Under the pieces are notes generated by a model. That model did no database searches. It was not told the DNA's origin and saw only the letters and a list, made by a program, of their open reading frames with translations. DNA of 38,845 nucleotides from an uncultured Trueperaceae bacterium (GTDB taxonomy: Bacteria; Deinococcota; Deinococci; Deinococcales; Trueperaceae): positions 1-38,845 of the forward strand of contig CAJXOA010000024.1 of NCBI GenBank assembly GCA_913057685.1, given 5' to 3'. Position 1 is the first letter of the stretch, and every line of letters begins with the position of its first letter. The translations under genes and the position numbers were made by a program. Below are positions 4,604-38,725 of this stretch, piece by piece.

Positions 4604-6343
4604 TCAGTCGAGGACGATGTCCTTCCAGAGGAACTGGCCGCCGTACATGGGGTTGAGGTAGACGCCCTGCACGTTGTCGCGCGTGACGATGAACTCGTTG
4701 GGCGAGGGGTAGGGCAGCATCGGCATCTCGTCGTAGGCGATCTGGCCGACCTGCTCGTAGAGGTCCTCGCGCTCGTCGGCGTCGACGGTCTCGCGCGCGG
4801 CGTCGATCAGCGCGTCGAGTTCCGGGTTGTCGATGCCGGTCCGACCGGCGTAGAAGCCCTCGGAGTGATAGAAGGGGTGCAGGAAGTAGTCCGAGTCGGC
4901 GTAGGACGGGGCCCAGCCGAGCGCGAACATGGTGCCCTTACCCTCGTCGGTGTAGGCGAGGTAGTCGGGCCACGCGAGCTCGCGGACGTTCATGCGGAAG
5001 CCCGGGTTCATGAACTCGATGTTGTCCTTGATGATGTTCAGCGCCGCCTGGCGGGTGGTGTTGCCCGCGTTGTAGGTGGCGGTGAACTCGAAGCCGTTCT
5101 CCCACACGGCCCCGCCGTGCGCAGCCTGGCAGGCCTCTTCCGCGGCGGCGTAGTCCACGTCGTAGACCGGCAGGTCGTCGCGGTAGCCGAGGAAGGAGGG
5201 CGGCAGGCCCATGGTCAGCGCCTGGCCTTGGCCCTGGAGGACCTGGTCGATGAAGGCCTGCTGGTCGAAGTTGTACGCGAAGCACTTGCGCATGTTCGCG
5301 TCGTCGAAGAAGTTGGCGGGGATGCCGTCGCCGTCCAGCTGGCCGCTGCCGACGTCGGGGTTGTTGTCGGTGTTGATGTCGCTGTTGAAGAACACCATGC
5401 CGACGGTGGTGGAGAGCCAGTTGGGGTCCTCGTGGATCGTGACGCCTTCGGCGCCGCGAAGCTGCTCGAGGGTGGCGCGGTCGCCGACCTGCACGCGACT
5501 CGCGTCGCCCGCCTGGATGGCGAGGAGGCGGGTGGACTGCTCGTCGACGGTCTGGACGACGACGTCCTGCACGGCGGGGGTGTCGCCCCAGTAGCCGTCG
5601 TAGCGCTGGGCGACGAGTTGTTCGCCGTCCCAGTCGACGAGTTCGTAGGCGCCGGTACCGCTGGCGTTGTCGTGGAGGTGGTACTCGCGGAGGTTGACGC
5701 CGATCCAGTCGCGCCAGGTGGCTTCGGTGCCGTCCCAGAGGCCGTTGTCGATGGCGTAGTCGCGGTCGACGATGCGGGCGACGTCCGACATCATCTTCAC
5801 GAAGAAGGTGGGGTCGGGGGCGTCGAGGGTGAACTGGATGGTGGTGTCGTCGATGCACTCCGCGGCGTTTTGGATGCGGGCGAAGTAGTCGGCGTAGTCG
5901 GCGTCGGTGGCGTCGTCACCGAGGAACGAGTCGGCGTTCGCCTGGGTGCCGAGGAACGACTCGGCGAGGAACCACACGCCGCCGTCGCTGGGGTTGTGCA
6001 CCAGCATGCGCTCGACGGTGTACTCGACGTCGGCGCAGGTGAACTCGTTGCCGCTGTGGAAGGTGACGCCTTCGCGGAGGGTGAAGGTGTACTCGTCGCC
6101 GGCGTCGTTGGCGGACCAGTCGGTGGCGAGCGAACCTTGGAACTCCGTGACGCTTTCGCCGACGTAGTCGTAGAGGGTCTCGTAGATGTTCTCGATCGCG
6201 ACGCTGGACGCCGTGTCGTACGCCTGGGCGGGGTCGAGCGTGTCGATGCCCCCGAACGTCTGGTACACGAACGTGTTCTGCGCCGAGGCGCCCCCGAACA
6301 GGAGCGCGGCTGCGAGCGCGAGGCCGGTGAAGGCTTTTCTCAT
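4604..6343 (-). CDS. ABC transporter substrate-binding protein (SBP_bac_5, peptide/solute)
   Basis: A 579-residue periplasmic family-5 binding protein (DppA/OppA class), the ligand receptor for the two permeases downstream. A Sec signal peptide MRKAFTGLALAAALLFGGASA ends in an ASA-Q cleavage site with no lipobox cysteine, so it is soluble or retained otherwise. Family features include FGGIDTLDPAQAYDTAS near the mature start, ENIYETLYDYVG, the Trp/Asp-rich YTFTLREGVTFHSGNEF, and the C-terminal AYDEMPMLPYP. The length is on the long side for the family. The ATG at 6343 is chosen for the signal peptide and the AAAGGAAG Shine-Dalgarno just upstream. Unlike many genes here it has a genuine leader. 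The ligand (peptide, sugar, opine, nickel) cannot be fixed from sequence. Confidence 0.93.
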   Translation of the reverse strand: MRKAFTGLALAAALLFGGASAQNTFVYQTFGGIDTLDPAQAYDTASSVAIENIYETLYDYVGESVTEFQGSLATDWSANDAGDEYTFTLREGVTFHSGNEFTCADVEYTVERMLVHNPSDGGVWFLAESFLGTQANADSFLGDDATDADYADYFARIQNAAECIDDTTIQFTLDAPDPTFFVKMMSDVARIVDRDYAIDNGLWDGTEATWRDWIGVNLREYHLHDNASGTGAYELVDWDGEQLVAQRYDGYWGDTPAVQDVVVQTVDEQSTRLLAIQAGDASRVQVGDRATLEQLRGAEGVTIHEDPNWLSTTVGMVFFNSDINTDNNPDVGSGQLDGDGIPANFFDDANMRKCFAYNFDQQAFIDQVLQGQGQALTMGLPPSFLGYRDDLPVYDVDYAAAEEACQAAHGGAVWENGFEFTATYNAGNTTRQAALNIIKDNIEFMNPGFRMNVRELAWPDYLAYTDEGKGTMFALGWAPSYADSDYFLHPFYHSEGFYAGRTGIDNPELDALIDAARETVDADEREDLYEQVGQIAYDEMPMLPYPSPNEFIVTRDNVQGVYLNPMYGGQFLWKDIVLD

Positions 6344-6486
6344 GCGACTTCCTTTCGCCAACGGGATTCCGCCGTGCGCCACACCACCTCGACCGCGGCA
6401 TCGGCGCAGGAGCGGGAAGGTCCACCAGCGCTCCGTGGTCTTCGGGCGAACCAACGACCGAAGGCGGCACGGAGCCCGGAACGTAT

Positions 6487-6492
6487 AAAGTA
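6487..6492 (-). promoter_or_regulatory. Candidate -10 box for importer operon
   Basis: The minus strand reads GG-TACTTT-ATACGTT here, an AT-rich island in GC-rich DNA about 145 bp upstream of the binding-protein start. It fits the window's GG-TANNNT pattern but has no clear -35. It implies a 5' leader of roughly 135 nt. The rest of the 6344-6543 gap holds no reading frame that I support. Confidence 0.4.
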
Positions 6493-6543
6493 CCACATCC
6501 TGCGCGGGACCTTTCCCTGTCTGGCGCCGTGCCTCCCCGAGCT

Positions 6544-7086
6544 TCAGGGGAGGCGGGCCGCGTCGTCCGCGAGGTTCGCGTCCGCTTCGGTCAGGAACGC
6601 CACGATCGCGTCGTACTCCGCATCACTGAGCGCACCGGGGAACGGGCGCGGCATCGTCGCGCTCACGTACCCCTCGAGCGCCGCGGCCGACCCGAAGCGC
6701 CGCACCGCACCGTGCGGCCCCAGGAGCGCCGGGCCCTCCCCGACGCTGAACGCGTTGTTCGGGCGGATCCGCGACCAGTCCATCACCCGCGGGTTGGCGG
6801 GGCGGTGGCACTTCGTGCACGTTTGGTGCGAATCGGGGAACGCCGCGACCGCCTCCTCGAACCCCTGGCCGGTGTCGCCGTGACAGGCGGCGCAGTGGAA
6901 GGCGTACAGCGACGCGCCGGTGCGGACCTGCGCGTCCGCGCCGGGCACGAGCGCCAGGCTGGCGCGCGCCTCCGACGGGTCGGGTTGCGCGACCGCGGCC
7001 GTCGTCCCGAGAAGGGCGAGCGCGACGGCGAGGCGAACGAGGGCGAGGCGAACGAGGTGGACGGGAACGGAAGGAACGACGACCAC
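6544..7086 (-). CDS. Exported c-type cytochrome with two CXXCH motifs
   Basis: A 180-residue exported cytochrome c. A hydrophobic signal segment (about residues 10-33, ending AVAQ) precedes CAACH (65-69) and a second heme motif CTKCH (90-94) only 25 residues later. A candidate axial Met145 lies in ATMPRPFPG, the usual position for a class I cytochrome. The C-terminal helix (SDAEYDAIVAFL) is also typical. One class I fold plus an extra CXXCH suggests a compact diheme protein, though the second motif could bind another heme or be unused. Likely a periplasmic electron carrier. The GTG start at 7086 lies 2 nt after the stop of the 133-residue membrane protein, so the pair is one operon. The signal-peptide code contains a 15-bp tandem duplication. 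Confidence 0.85.
   Translation of the reverse strand: MVVVPSVPVHLVRLALVRLAVALALLGTTAAVAQPDPSEARASLALVPGADAQVRTGASLYAFHCAACHGDTGQGFEEAVAAFPDSHQTCTKCHRPANPRVMDWSRIRPNNAFSVGEGPALLGPHGAVRRFGSAAALEGYVSATMPRPFPGALSDAEYDAIVAFLTEADANLADDAARLP
7027..7056. repeat. Perfect 2 x 15-bp tandem repeat in signal-peptide coding region
   Basis: The unit GGCGAGGCGAACGAG occurs twice head to tail (7027-7041, 7042-7056) and is in frame with the cytochrome gene, giving LVRLA-LVRLA at the start of the hydrophobic segment. A duplication of five codons lengthens the signal sequence without a frameshift. Confidence 0.9.
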
Positions 7087-32760: not shown

Positions 32761-33222
32761 CTACGCCCGGCCGGCCGGCCGGACGGGCGCCGCCAAGCGA
32801 ACGGCGTGGACGGCGTCGAACACCCACAGGAAGCCGCCCTGCACCGCGACCCCGAGGGCGTGCCCCAGCCGCGCCGCGCTCGGGTCCCCGACCGTCGCGA
32901 GGGCCGCAGCGACCGCGAGGTAGCCGACGTCCAGGCCGGCGTTGATCCACAACAACCGGTGGGTGCGCCGCCGCTCCGCTTCGCTCGCGTCGAGCGAGGC
33001 GGGCGCGCCGGCGGCGACCTTCGCCCCGTGCCCGCGGAGGCCGGCGACGGCGATGGCGGCGTCGATGGCGCCCCACACCGCGAACTGCAGGGCGACGGCG
33101 GAGGCGAACGGGCTCGGGTCGCGCACGGCCAGCCCCGCCGCCAACGCCAGCGAGGCGGTCGCCCACCCGAGCAACTGCACCGGAATCGCGCGGTGGCGAC
33201 GCCAGAACGCCTCGTTCGTCAC
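32761..33222 (-). CDS. Small polytopic membrane protein (possible DUF6992)
   Basis: A 153-residue integral membrane protein with four hydrophobic segments: GWATASLALAAGLAV, AVALQFAVWGAIDAAIAVAG, LLWINAGLDVGYLAVAAALA and GHALGVAVQGGFLWVFDAVHAVRL. The spaced motifs FAVWGAIDAAIA and RRTHRLLWINAGLDVGY repeat a W/N-x-A-x-D pattern, suggesting an internal duplication of a two-helix unit. I believe this corresponds to the uncharacterised DUF6992 family but cannot verify it. The GTG at 33222 begins one base after the beta-barrel gene stop, so it is the last gene of the envelope operon. Confidence 0.7.
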   Translation of the reverse strand: MTNEAFWRRHRAIPVQLLGWATASLALAAGLAVRDPSPFASAVALQFAVWGAIDAAIAVAGLRGHGAKVAAGAPASLDASEAERRRTHRLLWINAGLDVGYLAVAAALATVGDPSAARLGHALGVAVQGGFLWVFDAVHAVRLAAPVRPAGRA

Positions 33223-33223
33223 G

Positions 33224-34300
33224 TCAGAACGCCGTCCGGAGCGCCACGCCGGTCCGCAGCGTCCGCCCCGCGGGCCCCCCGGCGACCCCGGCGTCGAGGA
33301 CGAGGTCGGCGTCGCCGCTCGGGCGCGTCCACGTCGCACCGGCGTCCCAGTGGGCGGCGCGCTCCCCCGCGACGTCGGGCCAGGCGACCCCGGCCGCCGC
33401 CTCCAGGGAGCCGCGCGCGCCGATCGCCCGCGAGGCGGACGTCCGGAGGGCGGGGCGGGTGCCGTCGACGGCCGCGCCGTCTACGTCGCGTTGACGGGTC
33501 ACCCCCCCGCCGGGGGGCGCGAGGTGCGCCTCCGTCGTCCACAACCAGTCGCCGGCGTACCCCGAGGCGCCCACCCCGCCGCGGAGCGCCACGGGGTCGC
33601 TCAGCGCCCACGCTTCGCCGTAGACGACCTGCCCGCCGACCGTCGCCGAGGCGCTGCCGCCCGCCGCGAGGCGGGCGCCGCCCGAGGCGTCGCCGGCGAG
33701 GGGGGTGCGCAGCAGGTGCAGTTCGACCGTCGCGTCGCCGTCGATGCGGACCGACACCCCACCCCCCGGGCCGGCCTCGGTCCGAGGGGAGAGGTCGTCG
33801 TCGCGCCCCACGGGCCAGCGCACGCCGGTGCGGATGCGGGCGTCGCCGGCGTAGCCGCGGACCTGGACGCCCCACGCGCCGCGCGGGGCGCCGCTCGCGA
33901 GTGGCGCGTCGAGCGTCACCGCCGGCGCGAGCCGGAGTTCGCCGAGCGCCCACCGGTGTAGCCCCGCGCGGACCCGCCAGGCGTCGACGTCCAGCGCGAC
34001 GTAGGCCTCCTGGAGGCCGTGACGGACGCTCACGCCGTCGGTCGCGGCGTCCCGGCGGACGGTCGGGGTGGCCTCGGCGTGCAGCGTCACGGCGTCCGCG
34101 ACGCGCACCCCGAACGCCAGGCGGGCGGTGGCGTCCGCCGCGAGATCGACGGCGTCGACGCCGGCGTCGTTCAGGGGGACGGTGGGGGCCAGGCGCGCCT
34201 CGAGCTCGACGCGGAGGACGTCCTGCGCGAAGGCGGGCGCGCCGAACGCCACCGCCGCGACGAGGACGGCGCGCATCGCGAGGCGGCCGGCGGCGGTCAC
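33224..34300 (-). CDS. Predicted outer-membrane beta-barrel protein
   Basis: A 358-residue exported protein. The signal peptide (MRAVLVAAVAFGAPAFAQ in the first about 26 residues) precedes a mature sequence of alternating hydrophobic and polar strands (VRAGLHRWALGELRLAPAVTLDAPL, VSVRIDGDATVELHLLRT, ALRTSASRAIGARGSLEAAAG and similar), many turns rich in Gly/Asp, and a C-terminal strand RTLRTGVALRTAF ending in Phe. A terminal aromatic residue is the hallmark of BAM-recognised outer-membrane barrels. It is not a close match to a porin family I recognise. The GTG at 34300 overlaps the ATPase stop (GTGA). Its presence inside a LolCDE-like operon suggests an outer-membrane acceptor or conduit. Confidence 0.77.
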   Translation of the reverse strand: MTAAGRLAMRAVLVAAVAFGAPAFAQDVLRVELEARLAPTVPLNDAGVDAVDLAADATARLAFGVRVADAVTLHAEATPTVRRDAATDGVSVRHGLQEAYVALDVDAWRVRAGLHRWALGELRLAPAVTLDAPLASGAPRGAWGVQVRGYAGDARIRTGVRWPVGRDDDLSPRTEAGPGGGVSVRIDGDATVELHLLRTPLAGDASGGARLAAGGSASATVGGQVVYGEAWALSDPVALRGGVGASGYAGDWLWTTEAHLAPPGGGVTRQRDVDGAAVDGTRPALRTSASRAIGARGSLEAAAGVAWPDVAGERAAHWDAGATWTRPSGDADLVLDAGVAGGPAGRTLRTGVALRTAF

Positions 34301-35022
34301 GGGGTCGCCTGCGACGCAGGTGCGTCGGTCGCGTCGGTCCCGTCGTCGACGACGCGGCCGTCCTCGAGCCGGACGATACGGTCGACGCGGTCGAGGAGCC
34401 GGGGGTCGTGCGTACTGAAGACGAAGGTCACGTCCTCCTCCTCGTTGAGGCGCCGCATCAGGTCGATGAGGTCGGCGCCGGCCCGCGAATCGAGGTTCGC
34501 GGTCGGTTCGTCCGCCAGGACGATGGCGGGGTCGGCGGCGATCGCGCGGGCGATCGCGACGCGTTGGCGTTGTCCGCCGGACAGTTGGTTCGGGCGGCGG
34601 TCGGCGTACGCCGCCATGTCGAGGCGCGCGAGGGCGTCGCGCGCCTTCGCCTCCCGCGCCGCGCGGTCCTCCCCCCGCAACTCGAGGACGAAGGCGGCGT
34701 TCTCGAGGGCGGAGAGGACGGGGATCAGGTTGTACGCCTGGAAGACGAAGCCGATGCGGGCGAGGCGGAGGCGTGCCGCAGCCCCGCGGGGGAGACGGTC
34801 GATGCGTTCCCCGCGCAACCACACCTCGCCGGCGTCGCCGTGATCGAGGACCCCCATCAGGTGCAACAGCGTCGATTTGCCGCTGCCCGACGGTCCCGCG
34901 ACCGCCGTGAACTCGCCGGCGGCGACGTCGAGGTCGACGCCGGACAGGGCGGACGTCGTCACCTCCCCCACGCGGTAGCTCTTGCGCAGGTCGCGGACGC
35001 GGTAGAGCGGTTCGGCGGTCAC
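34297..35022 (-). CDS. ABC transporter ATPase, LolD/MacB-type
   Basis: A 241-residue ATPase of the LolD/MacB/FtsE class: A-loop Tyr in LRKSYRVGE, Walker A GPSGSGKST (43-51), Q-loop FVFQAYNLIP, signature LSGGQRQR (147-154), Walker B IVLADEPTANLD (in outline 167-178) and switch His (FSTHDPRLL). It drives mechanotransmission through FtsX-type permeases rather than transport through a membrane pore. The C-terminal 15 residues are polar and extra. It overlaps the upstream permease (GTGA, 35019-35022) and the downstream barrel (GTGA, 34297-34300). Confidence 0.94.
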   Translation of the reverse strand: MTAEPLYRVRDLRKSYRVGEVTTSALSGVDLDVAAGEFTAVAGPSGSGKSTLLHLMGVLDHGDAGEVWLRGERIDRLPRGAAARLRLARIGFVFQAYNLIPVLSALENAAFVLELRGEDRAAREAKARDALARLDMAAYADRRPNQLSGGQRQRVAIARAIAADPAIVLADEPTANLDSRAGADLIDLMRRLNEEEDVTFVFSTHDPRLLDRVDRIVRLEDGRVVDDGTDATDAPASQATP

Positions 35023-36248
35023 GCTTGGAACCTCATCGCCTCGACCGGTTCGATGCGCGCCGCGATCGTGGCGGGCCAGGCGGCGGCGAGGACGGCGGTG
35101 AGGACCGCGAAGCCGACGGCGAACGCCACCTGCCCCGGATCGATCGAGAGGTAGAAGACCGGGTCCAGCCCGAACGAGGCGTAGTACGACGCGAGGCCGG
35201 GGATGCGGAACCCGTCGGCGTACGCCGCGACGAACGCCAACCCGCCGGCCGTCCCCACCGCCGCCCCGACGACCGCCAGCAGGACGCTTTCCGTCGCGAC
35301 CATCGCCAGGACCCGCCGGTCGCCGGCCCCGAGGGCGTGCAGCACCCCGAACTCGTGGATGCGTTCCATGACGCTCAGGTAGACGGTGTTCAGCATCAAC
35401 AGCCCCGCCAGCACGAAGAACAGGACCGAGACCGCGAACAGCAACGGATCGAGCGCGTTCAGCAGCTGCTGCGTCGACGGGTTCGCGGTCCGCCAGTCCT
35501 CCACCCGCAGGTCGGGGAGCGCCGCGCCCAACGTGGCCGCCAGCGCGGCGCTGACGTCGTCGTCGGCGATGCGGCGCAGCGACGTGCCGTGCACCTCGAT
35601 GCGCTGCACCGCGCCGGGTGCCGCCAGCTGCTGCGTCGCGGCGAGCGTCGTCCAGGCCGCGGCGATCTCCGCGCCGGGGTCGGCGAGGTCGACGGTGCCG
35701 ACGAGGGCGTACGCCGCGACGCCGTACCCCGCCCCGCCGGGGGCGTACGCCACGACCTCGTCGCCGATCGCGACGTCGAGGGCGCGCGCGAGGGCGGCGC
35801 CCAGCACGATCTCGTCGTCGCCCTCGAGGAAGCGACCCTCCAGCGTCGCGTCGTCCAGGCGGCGCTCCCGCGCGGGGTCCGGCCACGGTTGGCCGTGGAT
35901 CGCGACGCCGCGCGAGCGGCGTTCCCCGGACAGGAGGGCGGGGACGTCCAGGGTCGGCAGGACCAAGGGGGCGGCCAGCGTCGCGTCCGCCTCCCGGCGG
36001 ACGGTCGCGATGGCGGCGTCGGCGTCCTCGACGAGGGTCGCCTCGAACCGGGTGGCGTCGTCCGCACCGGGCGCGGTCACGATCACGTGCCCCCCGCGTT
36101 CGGTGAGGGTCTGGTAGAGCCCGTTCTCCGCCGCGCCGCCCAACGCGAAGTACGCGACGCTGAGCAGCACGACCAGCCCGACCGCGCCGGCGGTGACGAG
36201 GCTGCGGCGGCGTTGCCGCCAGAGGTTGCGCCAAGCGAGGGCGATCAC
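35019..36248 (-). CDS. FtsX-type ABC permease, LolC/LolE-like (second of two)
   Basis: A 409-residue type-VII ABC permease: one N-terminal membrane helix (AWRNLWRQRRRSLVTAGAVGLVVLLSV), a periplasmic domain of about 230 residues, then three C-terminal helices (FAVSVLFFVLAGLLMLNTVYL; VATESVLLAVVGAAVGTAGGLAFV; VAFAVGFAVLTAVLAAAWPA). The MERIHEFGVLHALGAGDRRVL coupling segment is the FtsX/LolC signature. It ends PVEAMRFQA. The GTG at 36248 overlaps the LolA-like stop by GTGA. It most likely forms an asymmetric pair with the 37104-38336 permease around the ATPase. Confidence 0.9.
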   Translation of the reverse strand: MIALAWRNLWRQRRRSLVTAGAVGLVVLLSVAYFALGGAAENGLYQTLTERGGHVIVTAPGADDATRFEATLVEDADAAIATVRREADATLAAPLVLPTLDVPALLSGERRSRGVAIHGQPWPDPARERRLDDATLEGRFLEGDDEIVLGAALARALDVAIGDEVVAYAPGGAGYGVAAYALVGTVDLADPGAEIAAAWTTLAATQQLAAPGAVQRIEVHGTSLRRIADDDVSAALAATLGAALPDLRVEDWRTANPSTQQLLNALDPLLFAVSVLFFVLAGLLMLNTVYLSVMERIHEFGVLHALGAGDRRVLAMVATESVLLAVVGAAVGTAGGLAFVAAYADGFRIPGLASYYASFGLDPVFYLSIDPGQVAFAVGFAVLTAVLAAAWPATIAARIEPVEAMRFQA

Positions 36249-37096
36249 CAGCGGCACCCCGTCTCGAGCGCTTCGAGCGTGAAGCAGCGGTCGGGCGGCT
36301 CGACGCCGAACGTCGCGTCCTCCCACGTCGCGATCGTCCGGCCGCCCCCCTCCGTGAGGTCGACGACCTCGAAGCGGGTGGGGACCGTCCGGCCGTCCTC
36401 GAGCGTGCGTGGATCGTGCAGCGTCAGGCGTTTCACGGGTGCGTCGCGCTGGTCGAGGTACGTCAGCTCGAGCGGCGTCAGGTCGGGCAGGCGGGCGGTG
36501 AGGCGGAGTTCTCCGTACGGGGTCGCGGCGCCGGCGCGTGGCACGAGCGAGACGACGACGCGGTCGTCGGTGCGTTCGGCGATCGCGGCGTCGTACGTGT
36601 CGCGAAGCTCGTCGCCGGCGAGGTCGTCGTACGACAGGTCGCTGCCGAGGAAGCCGTCGCTGCGGCCCGAGGGCGGCAGGCGCAGGCTGCGCCCGACGCG
36701 GGGGGCGTACACGAACAGCTCGCTCCCGTCGACCAGGAAGGCGCGCCCCGCTTCGTTCGGTGGGGCGACGACCCGCGTCAGGGCCCGTTCGTCCCCGTCC
36801 CCGATCGTCTCGAGGACGTACCGGTCCGTGGCGTCGTCCCGCTCGACCGTCATGCGGATCGTGGCGCGCTGTCCACCGCCGCGGAGGTTCTCGACGATGC
36901 GGTCGACGATCGCGTCGGCGTCGGCGGGGACCGCGGCCTCCTGCGCGAGGGCGCCGCCGGCCACGAGGACGGCGGCGAGGACCGCCGCCGCCCGGACCGC
37001 CGCGGTTCGCATCGCTGCGGTCCGCACCGCAGCGACCCGGAGCCGCGCGATGCGGGCGGCGGAGGACCCGAAGAGGGGGAGAGGGAACGTCGTCAT
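36245..37096 (-). CDS. LolA-like outer-membrane lipoprotein-sorting protein
   Basis: A 283-residue exported protein matching the 'outer membrane lipoprotein-sorting protein' family (LolA-like, PF17131-type): after a long signal (cleavage near GGALAQ) come ADAIVDRIVENLRGGGQRATIRMTVERD, LETIGDGDERALTRVVAPPNEAGRAFLVDGSELFVYAPRVGRSLRLPPSGRSDGFLGSDLSYDDL and PLELTYLDQRDAPVKRLTLHDPR in outline. The YDDL and 'DxxLW.Y.P' features are typical of the half-barrel lipid/lipoprotein carrier. Ends TLEALETGCRW. The ATG at 37096 is chosen for GAGG 5 nt upstream; the signal peptide could instead begin at Met 37012 after a repeated VRTAA stretch. Confidence 0.87.
   Translation of the reverse strand: MTTFPLPLFGSSAARIARLRVAAVRTAAMRTAAVRAAAVLAAVLVAGGALAQEAAVPADADAIVDRIVENLRGGGQRATIRMTVERDDATDRYVLETIGDGDERALTRVVAPPNEAGRAFLVDGSELFVYAPRVGRSLRLPPSGRSDGFLGSDLSYDDLAGDELRDTYDAAIAERTDDRVVVSLVPRAGAATPYGELRLTARLPDLTPLELTYLDQRDAPVKRLTLHDPRTLEDGRTVPTRFEVVDLTEGGGRTIATWEDATFGVEPPDRCFTLEALETGCRW
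36993..37037. repeat. Three imperfect 15-bp repeats in LolA-like signal-peptide region
   Basis: Three head-to-tail 15-mers (36993-37007, 37008-37022, 37023-37037) differ from their neighbours at about four positions each. In frame they give pentads resembling (V/M)RTAA. The signal peptide is thus built from a repeated motif, as in the cytochrome gene. Confidence 0.75.
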
Positions 37097-37103
37097 GGGC
37101 ACC

Positions 37104-38336
37104 TCATTCGGCGGCGCGCATGGCCTCGGCGGGCACGAGCCGGGCGACGCGGCGGGCGGGGGTGAGGGCGGCGAAGAGGGCGGCGAGCGCGACCGTGACG
37201 CCGGCGTACGCGAGGTACTCGAGGCGGACGTCGGCGCGGATCTCGTCGCCGAGCGCCAGCCCGGACAGGAAGTCGCCGTACACGCCGGTGAACAACGGAC
37301 CGAGCACGTTGACCTCGTGCAGGACGAACAGCAGCGCGTAGCCGAGGACCGCCCCGACGCCGTAGCCGAGCAGCGTCCCGAGGATCGCCTCGAGGACCAC
37401 CATCCAGGCCAGGCGGACGTGCCCCAGGCCGAGCGCGAGGATGACGCCGAACTCGCGGGTGCGTTCCATGACCGACACGACGAGGCTGGAGGTGACGGCG
37501 ATCGCGCCGAAGAGGCTGAAGAGCAGCCCGATGGGGATCATCGAGACGCGCTCCGCCGCCAGCCCGCGCGCGAGCTCCCCCATCTGGTCGAGGATCCCGT
37601 ACGCCCGCACGCCCTCGGGCAGGCGGTCGCTGGCCGCCGCCGCGACGGCCGCTTCGCGTCCGCGGGGCACGTCGAGCGCGAGTTCGGTGGCGCCGTCGAC
37701 GCCGGCGAGGGCGCGGGCGTCCGCGAGGTGCGCGAGGACCGTGCCGGCATCGACCGCCTCGATGCCGGTGTCGATGAGGCCGACGAGGCGGAGGCCGGTC
37801 GCCGCGGGGCCGCCGACGGCGGCGACGTCCACCGCCACCCGTTCCCCGAGCCGGACGTCGAGCGTCTCGGCGAGGTCCGCGCCGAGCACCAGTTCGCCGG
37901 GCGCTTCGAGCATGCGGCCGTCCTGGATGGCGTCCGGGAGGTCACTGACGGCGGACTCGCCGGCGGGATCGACGCCGCGGAGCGTCGCGCCGCGCTGAGC
38001 GTAGGGGCTGCGGAGGAGGGCGGGCACGTCCAACCTCGGGGTGGCGGCCCGAACGCCGGGCACCGCCGTCACCGCCCTCCGGACGTCGTCGAGCCCCGCG
38101 AGGGCGTGCACCGGGTCGGGATCGGCGTGGTAGGCCTCCGTCGTCACGGCCACGGGGGCGGCGACGAGGCGCGCCTGGCCTTGGAAGATGGCGTTCAGGA
38201 ACCCGTCGGTGAAGCCCCAGAAGAACAGGATCGACAGGGTGGCGTAGGCGACGACCGCAATCAGCAGGGCGGTGCGGAGCCGCTGGCGGAACAGCGACCT
38301 CCACGCGAGCTTGAGCGTCGCGAGGGCGGCGTTCAC
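37104..38336 (-). CDS. FtsX-type ABC permease, LolC/LolE-like (first of two)
   Basis: A 410-residue permease with the same layout as its partner: helix 1 (KLAWRSLFRQRLRTALLIAVVAYATLSILFF), a periplasmic domain of about 210 residues, then helices near IPIGLLFSLFGAIAVTSSLVV, VVLEAILGTLLGYGVGAVLGYALLF and YLAYAGVTVALAALFAALTPA. The MERTREFGVILALGLGHVRLA coupling segment and ending PAEAMRAAE are FtsX/LolE-like. Gene order permease-LolA-like-permease-ATPase-barrel-small membrane protein makes it first in the operon. The GTG start follows TAGCGT by 6 nt and is probably leaderless. Confidence 0.9.
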   Translation of the reverse strand: MNAALATLKLAWRSLFRQRLRTALLIAVVAYATLSILFFWGFTDGFLNAIFQGQARLVAAPVAVTTEAYHADPDPVHALAGLDDVRRAVTAVPGVRAATPRLDVPALLRSPYAQRGATLRGVDPAGESAVSDLPDAIQDGRMLEAPGELVLGADLAETLDVRLGERVAVDVAAVGGPAATGLRLVGLIDTGIEAVDAGTVLAHLADARALAGVDGATELALDVPRGREAAVAAAASDRLPEGVRAYGILDQMGELARGLAAERVSMIPIGLLFSLFGAIAVTSSLVVSVMERTREFGVILALGLGHVRLAWMVVLEAILGTLLGYGVGAVLGYALLFVLHEVNVLGPLFTGVYGDFLSGLALGDEIRADVRLEYLAYAGVTVALAALFAALTPARRVARLVPAEAMRAAE

Positions 38337-38404: not shown

Positions 38405-38725
38405 TCAGGGCGTCGTTTCGTCCCGAACCCAGGCGAGGTAGGCCTCCGCCCCGGCGTCGACGGGCCACGCGACGACGCACGGCACGTCGTAGGGGTGCAG
38501 CGCTTCGACGGCGTCGACGAGTTCGTCGAGGCGTCCTTCGCGGGTCTTCAGGATCATGGCGACCTCGCCTTCGTCCTGCACGTCGCCGTCCCAGGTGAAG
38601 AACGACCGCACGCCGGGGAGGACGTTGGCGCAGGCGATGAGGCCGCGCTCGAGGAGGGCGCGCGCGAGGGTGGCGGCGTTGTCGGGGGTGTCGATCGTCA
38701 CGTACACGCTTCGCACGTCGGTCAT
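38405..38725 (-). CDS. cutA: Divalent-cation tolerance protein CutA
   Basis: A 106-residue trimeric CutA protein. Family hallmarks are VYVTIDTPDNAATLARALLERGLIACANVLPGVRSFFTWDGDVQDEGEVAMILKT in outline, and LHPYDVPCVVAWPV. The conserved GLIACANVLP and YDVP segments are present. The cellular role is uncertain: first linked to copper tolerance in E. coli, later to signal-like trimer assembly. The ATG at 38725 follows TATCCT by 6 nt. It converges with nothing; the envelope operon lies downstream on the same strand with its own promoter. Confidence 0.95.
   Translation of the reverse strand: MTDVRSVYVTIDTPDNAATLARALLERGLIACANVLPGVRSFFTWDGDVQDEGEVAMILKTREGRLDELVDAVEALHPYDVPCVVAWPVDAGAEAYLAWVRDETTP

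Follow-up and report, generated by a model that had tools for sequence, protein, structure and literature searches.

A candidate trans-envelope export operon in Deinococcota with a LolA-like carrier and its own predicted outer-membrane barrel

The window analyzed here is a 38,845-nucleotide stretch of contig CAJXOA010000024.1 (assembly GCA_913057685.1) from an uncultured Trueperaceae bacterium of the phylum Deinococcota. The draft genome of this host is 2.3 Mb and 98% complete and encodes an Omp85-family protein, as expected for a cell with an outer membrane. Toward the end of the window lies an operon encoding two FtsX-type permeases (P1 and P2), a LolA-like carrier, an ABC ATPase, a predicted outer-membrane barrel, and a small membrane protein. 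An initial annotation of the DNA had described these as six minus-strand genes joined by three GTGA overlaps and gaps of 1 to 7 nucleotides, all of which we found to be present. The genes, together with one upstream neighbor, are as follows.

37104..38336, minus strand: P1, a LolC/E-type FtsX permease and the first gene of the operon (PF02687, 6.8e-12; PF12704, MacB_PCD, 1.2e-6)
36245..37096, minus strand: LolA-like periplasmic carrier (PF17131, LolA_like, 8.3e-31) with an N-terminal signal-type sequence
35019..36248, minus strand: P2, a second LolC/E-type FtsX permease (PF02687, 5.5e-17)
34297..35022, minus strand: LolD-like ABC ATPase (ABC_tran, 2.7e-32)
33224..34300, minus strand: outer-membrane beta-barrel, putatively belonging, as a divergent member, to a superfamily of DUF1302-like barrels (predicted fold and profile match)
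32761..33222, minus strand: DUF6992 membrane protein, a genus-specific passenger or accessory gene (PF22503, 5.2e-25)
38405..38725, minus strand: cutA-like gene outside the conserved unit (open reading frame [ORF] translation, family named by inspection)

A five-gene unit conserved across Deinococcota

All three GTGA overlaps (36245-36248, 35019-35022, and 34297-34300) were exact. P1 and the carrier gene are separated by 1 nucleotide if the carrier starts at a GTG (37102) or by 7 nucleotides if it starts at an ATG (37096), and a gap of 1 nucleotide separates the barrel and DUF6992 genes (GTG at 33222). A neighborhood search showed that the order P1-LolA-P2-LolD-barrel is kept across the phylum, recurring in Deinococcota genera and families far beyond chance. 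The barrel gene adjoins the ATPase gene in 28 of 32 loci of the window type, by our own tally of only those loci whose sequence extends far enough. DUF6992 adjoins the operon only in the genus of the window, and other genera with the family have it away from the operon; since its adjacency is so limited, it was dropped as a core part. The conserved unit is five tightly packed genes, and to this extent the six-gene order first proposed had to be shortened. What stands is that inner-membrane, carrier, and (by prediction) outer-membrane components are encoded in one operon of a Deinococcota diderm.

Some relatives have lost parts of the unit. At one locus (L191, from about 4802 downwards, minus strand), a transposase gene interrupts the barrel gene and the four ABC and carrier genes are intact. 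Another (L121) has lost the carrier, and in a third (L120), from a near-complete genome, only the barrel is kept (5665-6687), as an orphan with no ABC, carrier, or RND neighbor. MarR-type genes were recognized in 24 ORFs of the locus set, usually directly upstream of P1; such a gene is the first of the operon in most relatives outside the window's genus but not within it.

The carrier is the sole PF17131 protein of the host genome, scoring 107.5 bits against a gathering score of 30, and its N terminus has no lipobox. Its relatives in the PDB are 3buu, 4z48, 3bk5, and 9tp6, and its nearest named relative, at 79% identity, comes from an uncultured Trueperaceae metagenome-assembled genome (MAG; L036). 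PF17131 is patchy in Deinococcota, with any match in 84 of 111 genomes and a match over the cut-off in 71 of them; many of the weaker ones resemble a different LolA-type protein.

Among PDB sequences, P1 best matched LolC (5.4e-13) and was nearest to LolC, LolF, and LolE as a group (E values of 1e-10 to 1e-13), and P2 best matched LolF (1.7e-7). The only PADLOC result for P1 was a weak match of LolE type. An AlphaFold2 model of P1 (3 sequences) had a predicted local distance difference test score (pLDDT) of 49.9 and was not used. As for the cutA-like gene, it lies 68 nucleotides upstream of the operon and is found upstream in two related loci as well (L018 and L036), this position being occupied in other genera by the MarR-type gene or by nothing recognized.

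The predicted barrel and its relatives

For the fifth protein of the unit, Pfam and NCBIfam gave no match and PDB sequences none that was meaningful; the DUF1302 model (PF06980) found it at no score reaching the gathering threshold and found none of its 13 homologues. It begins with a signal-type sequence and ends in Phe, and its lag-2 amphipathicity (z score of 4.0) stands out from that of the other window proteins (-0.1 to 1.4). An AlphaFold2 model (3 sequences) was all-beta, with a pLDDT of 67 and a predicted template modeling score (pTM) of 0.62. Foldseek matched this model to outer-membrane porins in the PDB, namely OccAB4, Campylobacter MOMP, OccD2/OpdC, and AlgE, with probability 1.00 and E values of about 1e-8 to 1e-9; template modeling (TM) scores were about 0.4 to 0.6, which does not fix the strand number. 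We therefore predict an OprD/AlgE-like outer-membrane porin fold, which agrees with the barrel read from the sequence at the outset.

We then compared profiles of the barrels encoded beside LolA-like carriers in different settings. Window-type barrels matched barrels linked to RND pumps at 95.8 to 96.8% (E value of 8e-9 at 95.8%), a result stable over gap settings, and the RND-linked barrels in turn matched a DUF1302-containing ABC set at 99.93% (E value of 1e-35). With their first 34 residues removed, the window-type barrels still matched all other carrier-linked barrels combined at 95.5% (E value of 1.5e-8), compared with 0.07% for the reversed control of the same comparison; these matches span about 130 columns and not the whole barrel. 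Reversed profiles and unrelated families gave less than 1%. A Deinococcota Omp85 barrel profile scored 0.07 to 0.39% against the window-type barrels, and this, with porins as the top Foldseek matches, argues against an Omp85-family barrel. Since the direct match between window-type barrels and the DUF1302-containing set alone was weak (13.9%), the link runs through the RND-linked barrels. Larger profiles were required to detect it: when a smaller barrel alignment was compared by hhalign with three proteins of DUF1302 type, the match was only 3% (E value of 0.015). By profile similarity, these comparisons link the window barrel to barrels found beside LolA-like carriers elsewhere, DUF1302 proteins included, as a probable homologue.

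Proposed function and its relation to Lol and MacAB systems

Together, the genes specify an inner-membrane extractor powered by ATP, a lipid-type shuttle for the periplasm, and an outer-membrane barrel belonging to the same operon. On balance, we think it probable that it is an accessory trans-envelope exporter of a hydrophobic small molecule or lipid that uses the shuttle and a dedicated barrel. The carrier would receive the cargo, shield it in the hydrophobic half-barrel expected from its family, and cross the periplasm. It would then dock on the co-encoded DUF1302-like barrel, and the cargo would be passed into or across the outer membrane. We infer the outward direction, the docking of carrier on barrel, and the class of cargo. 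MarR-type, TetR, and PadR genes adjoin such operons, which suggests that they are induced on demand and do not have a housekeeping role.

Several observations weigh against this proposal. In one genus (g2; L123 and L125) the barrel gene is not adjacent to the operon, a homologue being present elsewhere in the genome (L022 and L026), and at two further loci (L200 and L201) we found no barrel beside the operon. No conserved biosynthetic neighbor was found at the operon loci. Confidence in the barrel model is moderate. By sequence, the permeases appear closer to LolC/E than to MacB, which leaves room for a lipoprotein cargo, and by analogy with related DUF1302/DUF1329 systems the operon could serve uptake too.

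By membership, the operon is not a Lol system. Against the curated LolCE cut-off (TIGR02212, 362.45 bits), P1 scored 90.7 and P2 73.4 bits, and against that for LolD (TIGR02211, 307.75 bits) the ATPase scored 210.8 bits, even though LolCE and LolD were still the best-scoring NCBIfam families for these proteins. The Hook of LolC (amino acids 167 to 179), which recruits LolA, is 13 residues long in E. coli LolC but, by alignment only, 2 to 6 residues long in 31 of 31 P1 proteins and 6 in 32 of 32 P2 proteins. Lipoprotein trafficking in E. coli is reported to depend on the Hook, and the same is predicted in general (PMC10865981). We found no match to LolA (PF03548) or LolB (PF03550) in the host genome at an E value of 1. 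The best LolCE-like permease of the host (C4:74845-75966; L029, L209) is encoded outside the operon; it scored 195.8 bits, itself below the TIGR02212 cut-off, and has neither an adjoining LolD nor a LolC-type Hook. A second LolA-like protein is encoded at C4:47225. Because the genome has this separate permease and LolA-like protein, we no longer regard the operon as the sole Lol system of the cell.

It had been suggested initially that the barrel takes the place of LolB or that the cargo is a lipid. Of these, a lipid would fit best. We regard as unlikely the first alternative, a variant Lol pathway in which lipoproteins would be extracted by P1, P2, and the LolD-like ATPase and ferried by the carrier to a barrel that stands in for LolB and perhaps places them on the cell surface. 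It draws on the kinship of P1 to LolC, LolF, and LolE, on a LolCE profile score for P1 far above that for MacB, on the lack of LolB and PF03548 LolA matches in the host, and on a Borrelia cluster of the same logic that has tentatively been tied to lipoproteins (PMC13078400). Set against it are the low LolCE and LolD scores, the short Hook, the patchiness of the carrier family in the phylum, the separate LolCE-like permease and LolA-like protein, the MarR-type gene of most relatives outside the window's genus, and the pairing of related carriers and barrels with RND pumps.

Uptake or retrograde transport seems to us improbable. In this reading a hydrophobic compound would enter through the barrel and travel inward on the carrier, and the ABC transporter would power its passage into the inner membrane or out of it. 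DUF1302 and DUF1329 proteins are required when Tween 20 is the substrate, the direction being unspecified (PMC10866462), but type VII ABC transporters of known function are outward-acting or remove compounds from the inner membrane (PMC12646458), and the AmeABCD system described below has been interpreted as efflux (PMC6394551).

A MacAB-TolC-type drug exporter is very improbable: the FtsX and MacB_PCD domains are shared with it, but the ATPase and permeases are separate proteins, the operon encodes no MacA-type (HlyD) adaptor and no TolC-type (OEP) duct, having a soluble shuttle in place of a continuous channel, the MacB profile gave 20 bits (P1) and 31.8 bits against a cut-off of 966, and a MacA (HlyD)-MacB-OEP set at a separate locus (contig C27) makes a MacB reading of this operon unlikely. 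No complete LolABCDE set was found elsewhere in the genome, LolB being absent, and the MacA-MacB-OEP set is encoded apart from this operon.

The carrier-barrel pair and its motors

The proposed exporter may be one form of a wider arrangement. We examined carrier loci drawn from named genomes and from Deinococcota and Nitrospirota genomes, and at nearly all PF17131 loci the carrier lay beside an FtsX-type ABC transporter or an RND/MMPL pump. The next ORF usually had a signal-type N terminus, and its last residue was aromatic in 52 of 70 units, compared with 11 of 313 control ORFs, in a count that uses a heuristic choice of ORF and related loci that are not independent. Exceptions were two Verrucomicrobiota loci (L050 and L052) and two others (L181 and L182). 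In a Nitrospirota locus (L053) the next ORF matched DUF1302 above the Pfam cut-off, and at L046 the match was weak; the L046 carrier also matches DUF1329. The shuttle-plus-barrel pair was present in several other phyla, sometimes with a quite different pump.

A tree was built from 83 carriers, and those of the window type formed one clade of 33 rows (Shimodaira-Hasegawa-like approximate likelihood ratio test support of 100). When the carriers were labeled by motor (ABC, 54; RND, 24), parsimony gave four changes, at least two of them forced by starred branches, on a tree in which some long branches are unsure. Motor exchange around the carrier-barrel pair is likely, the number of exchanges being not settled. 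Because the carrier-linked barrels are related while the motor is either ABC or RND/MMPL, the pair would be the constant part and the motor the exchangeable one. We see an even chance that the PF17131 carrier and DUF1302-like barrel form the conserved outer half of a widespread trans-envelope machine for hydrophobic compounds, fitted with a type VII ABC or an RND/MMPL motor, the Deinococcota operon then being the form with an ABC motor and two permeases of LolC/E type.

The closest precedents appear, by analogy, to be AmeABCD, Pseudomonas PP_0765/0766, and Borrelia BBJ23-29. AmeABCD of Castellaniella defragrans, which has been linked to monoterpene tolerance, comprises the DUF1302 barrel AmeA, the DUF1329 LolA-superfamily protein AmeB, AmeC, and the RND pump AmeD (PMC6394551). 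Growth of Pseudomonas putida on Tween 20 requires PP_0765 and PP_0766, DUF1302 and DUF1329 proteins for which a mutual complex is predicted (PMC10866462). As in the operon, an inner-membrane motor, a LolA-superfamily carrier, and a DUF1302-type barrel form a functional set. These systems differ in having an RND motor (RND/HAE3 in the AmeABCD type, compared with ABC here), a DUF1329 carrier, and the extra periplasmic protein AmeC, and the window barrel is shorter and is missed by the DUF1302 Pfam model. The seven-gene BBJ23-29 cluster, reported only from Borrelia, was described computationally and likewise combines a type VII ABC transporter, a LolA-like protein, and an outer-membrane barrel, with a non-polar ligand proposed (PMC13078400); it differs in its Omp85-family barrel domain, its homodimeric permease, and two added TPR proteins.

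Other systems share fewer parts. LolCDE-LolA likewise joins two different FtsX permeases to a LolD-like ATPase and a periplasmic carrier of the LolA superfamily, but the operon has its own outer-membrane barrel, no LolB, a PF17131 rather than a PF03548 carrier, a shortened Hook, and an accessory character, often beside a MarR-type gene. The type VII transporter YbbAP of YbbAP-TesA extracts hydrophobic compounds (PMC12646458). BstABC of Methylococcus capsulatus is a set of sterol-binding transport proteins, found at the inner membrane, in the periplasm, and at the outer membrane (PMC10942540); its lipid-binding parts are encoded together, like those of the operon, but its motor is RND, BstB and BstC have other folds, and it has no DUF1302-like barrel. 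In the open-licence literature searched, as far as it was accessible, we found no paper joining AmeABCD, PP_0765/0766, and BBJ23-29, and no description of the Deinococcota operon or of a swap between ABC and RND motors around a common pair of carrier and barrel.

The operon bears on a general question, the passage of lipids and other hydrophobic compounds through a periplasm that no continuous duct spans, and offers for it a compact set of motor, soluble carrier, and matching barrel in Deinococcota. From the comparison, carrier and barrel look like a unit that can be reused, and this wider idea is of more interest than the operon itself. If true, a carrier-barrel pair with an exchangeable motor would give several phyla a further route, beside tripartite ducts and lipid bridges, by which greasy molecules cross the envelope.

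The loci varied in layout. Eight Deinococcota loci (L126-L129, L131, L133, L135, and L187) had operons in the order RND/MMPL pump-LolA_like-barrel, the barrels being of 403 to 439 amino acids with a Phe end, and a TetR-like gene was near some of them. In a further eight from this phylum (L124, L132, L136, L194-L197, and L205), the order was LolD-FtsX-FtsX-LolA_like, and most of them continued with an ORF of 431 to 441 amino acids; that of L132 matched DUF1302 weakly (E value of 0.0022). Loci from Nitrospirota and Desulfarculales (L046, L047, L049, L053, and L180) had an ABC version with both permeases fused into one protein of about 860 amino acids. The last residue of the barrel ORF was Trp in four of these (L046, L047, L053, and L180), and a PadR gene lay upstream in L046. 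Literature sought on PF17131 together with MMPL pointed to iron-regulated operons of Porphyromonas and Prevotella (PMC10434189). In a record titled Rickettsia typhi (L039), a name that looks doubtful for this MAG of about 0.9 Mb, the order LolA-FtsX-FtsX-LolD was followed by a signal-bearing ORF of 408 amino acids. Finally, at L207 (66-2998), an FtsX protein, a LolA-like protein of the second type, and a signal-bearing 317-amino-acid ORF were consecutive, possibly as another version of the module.

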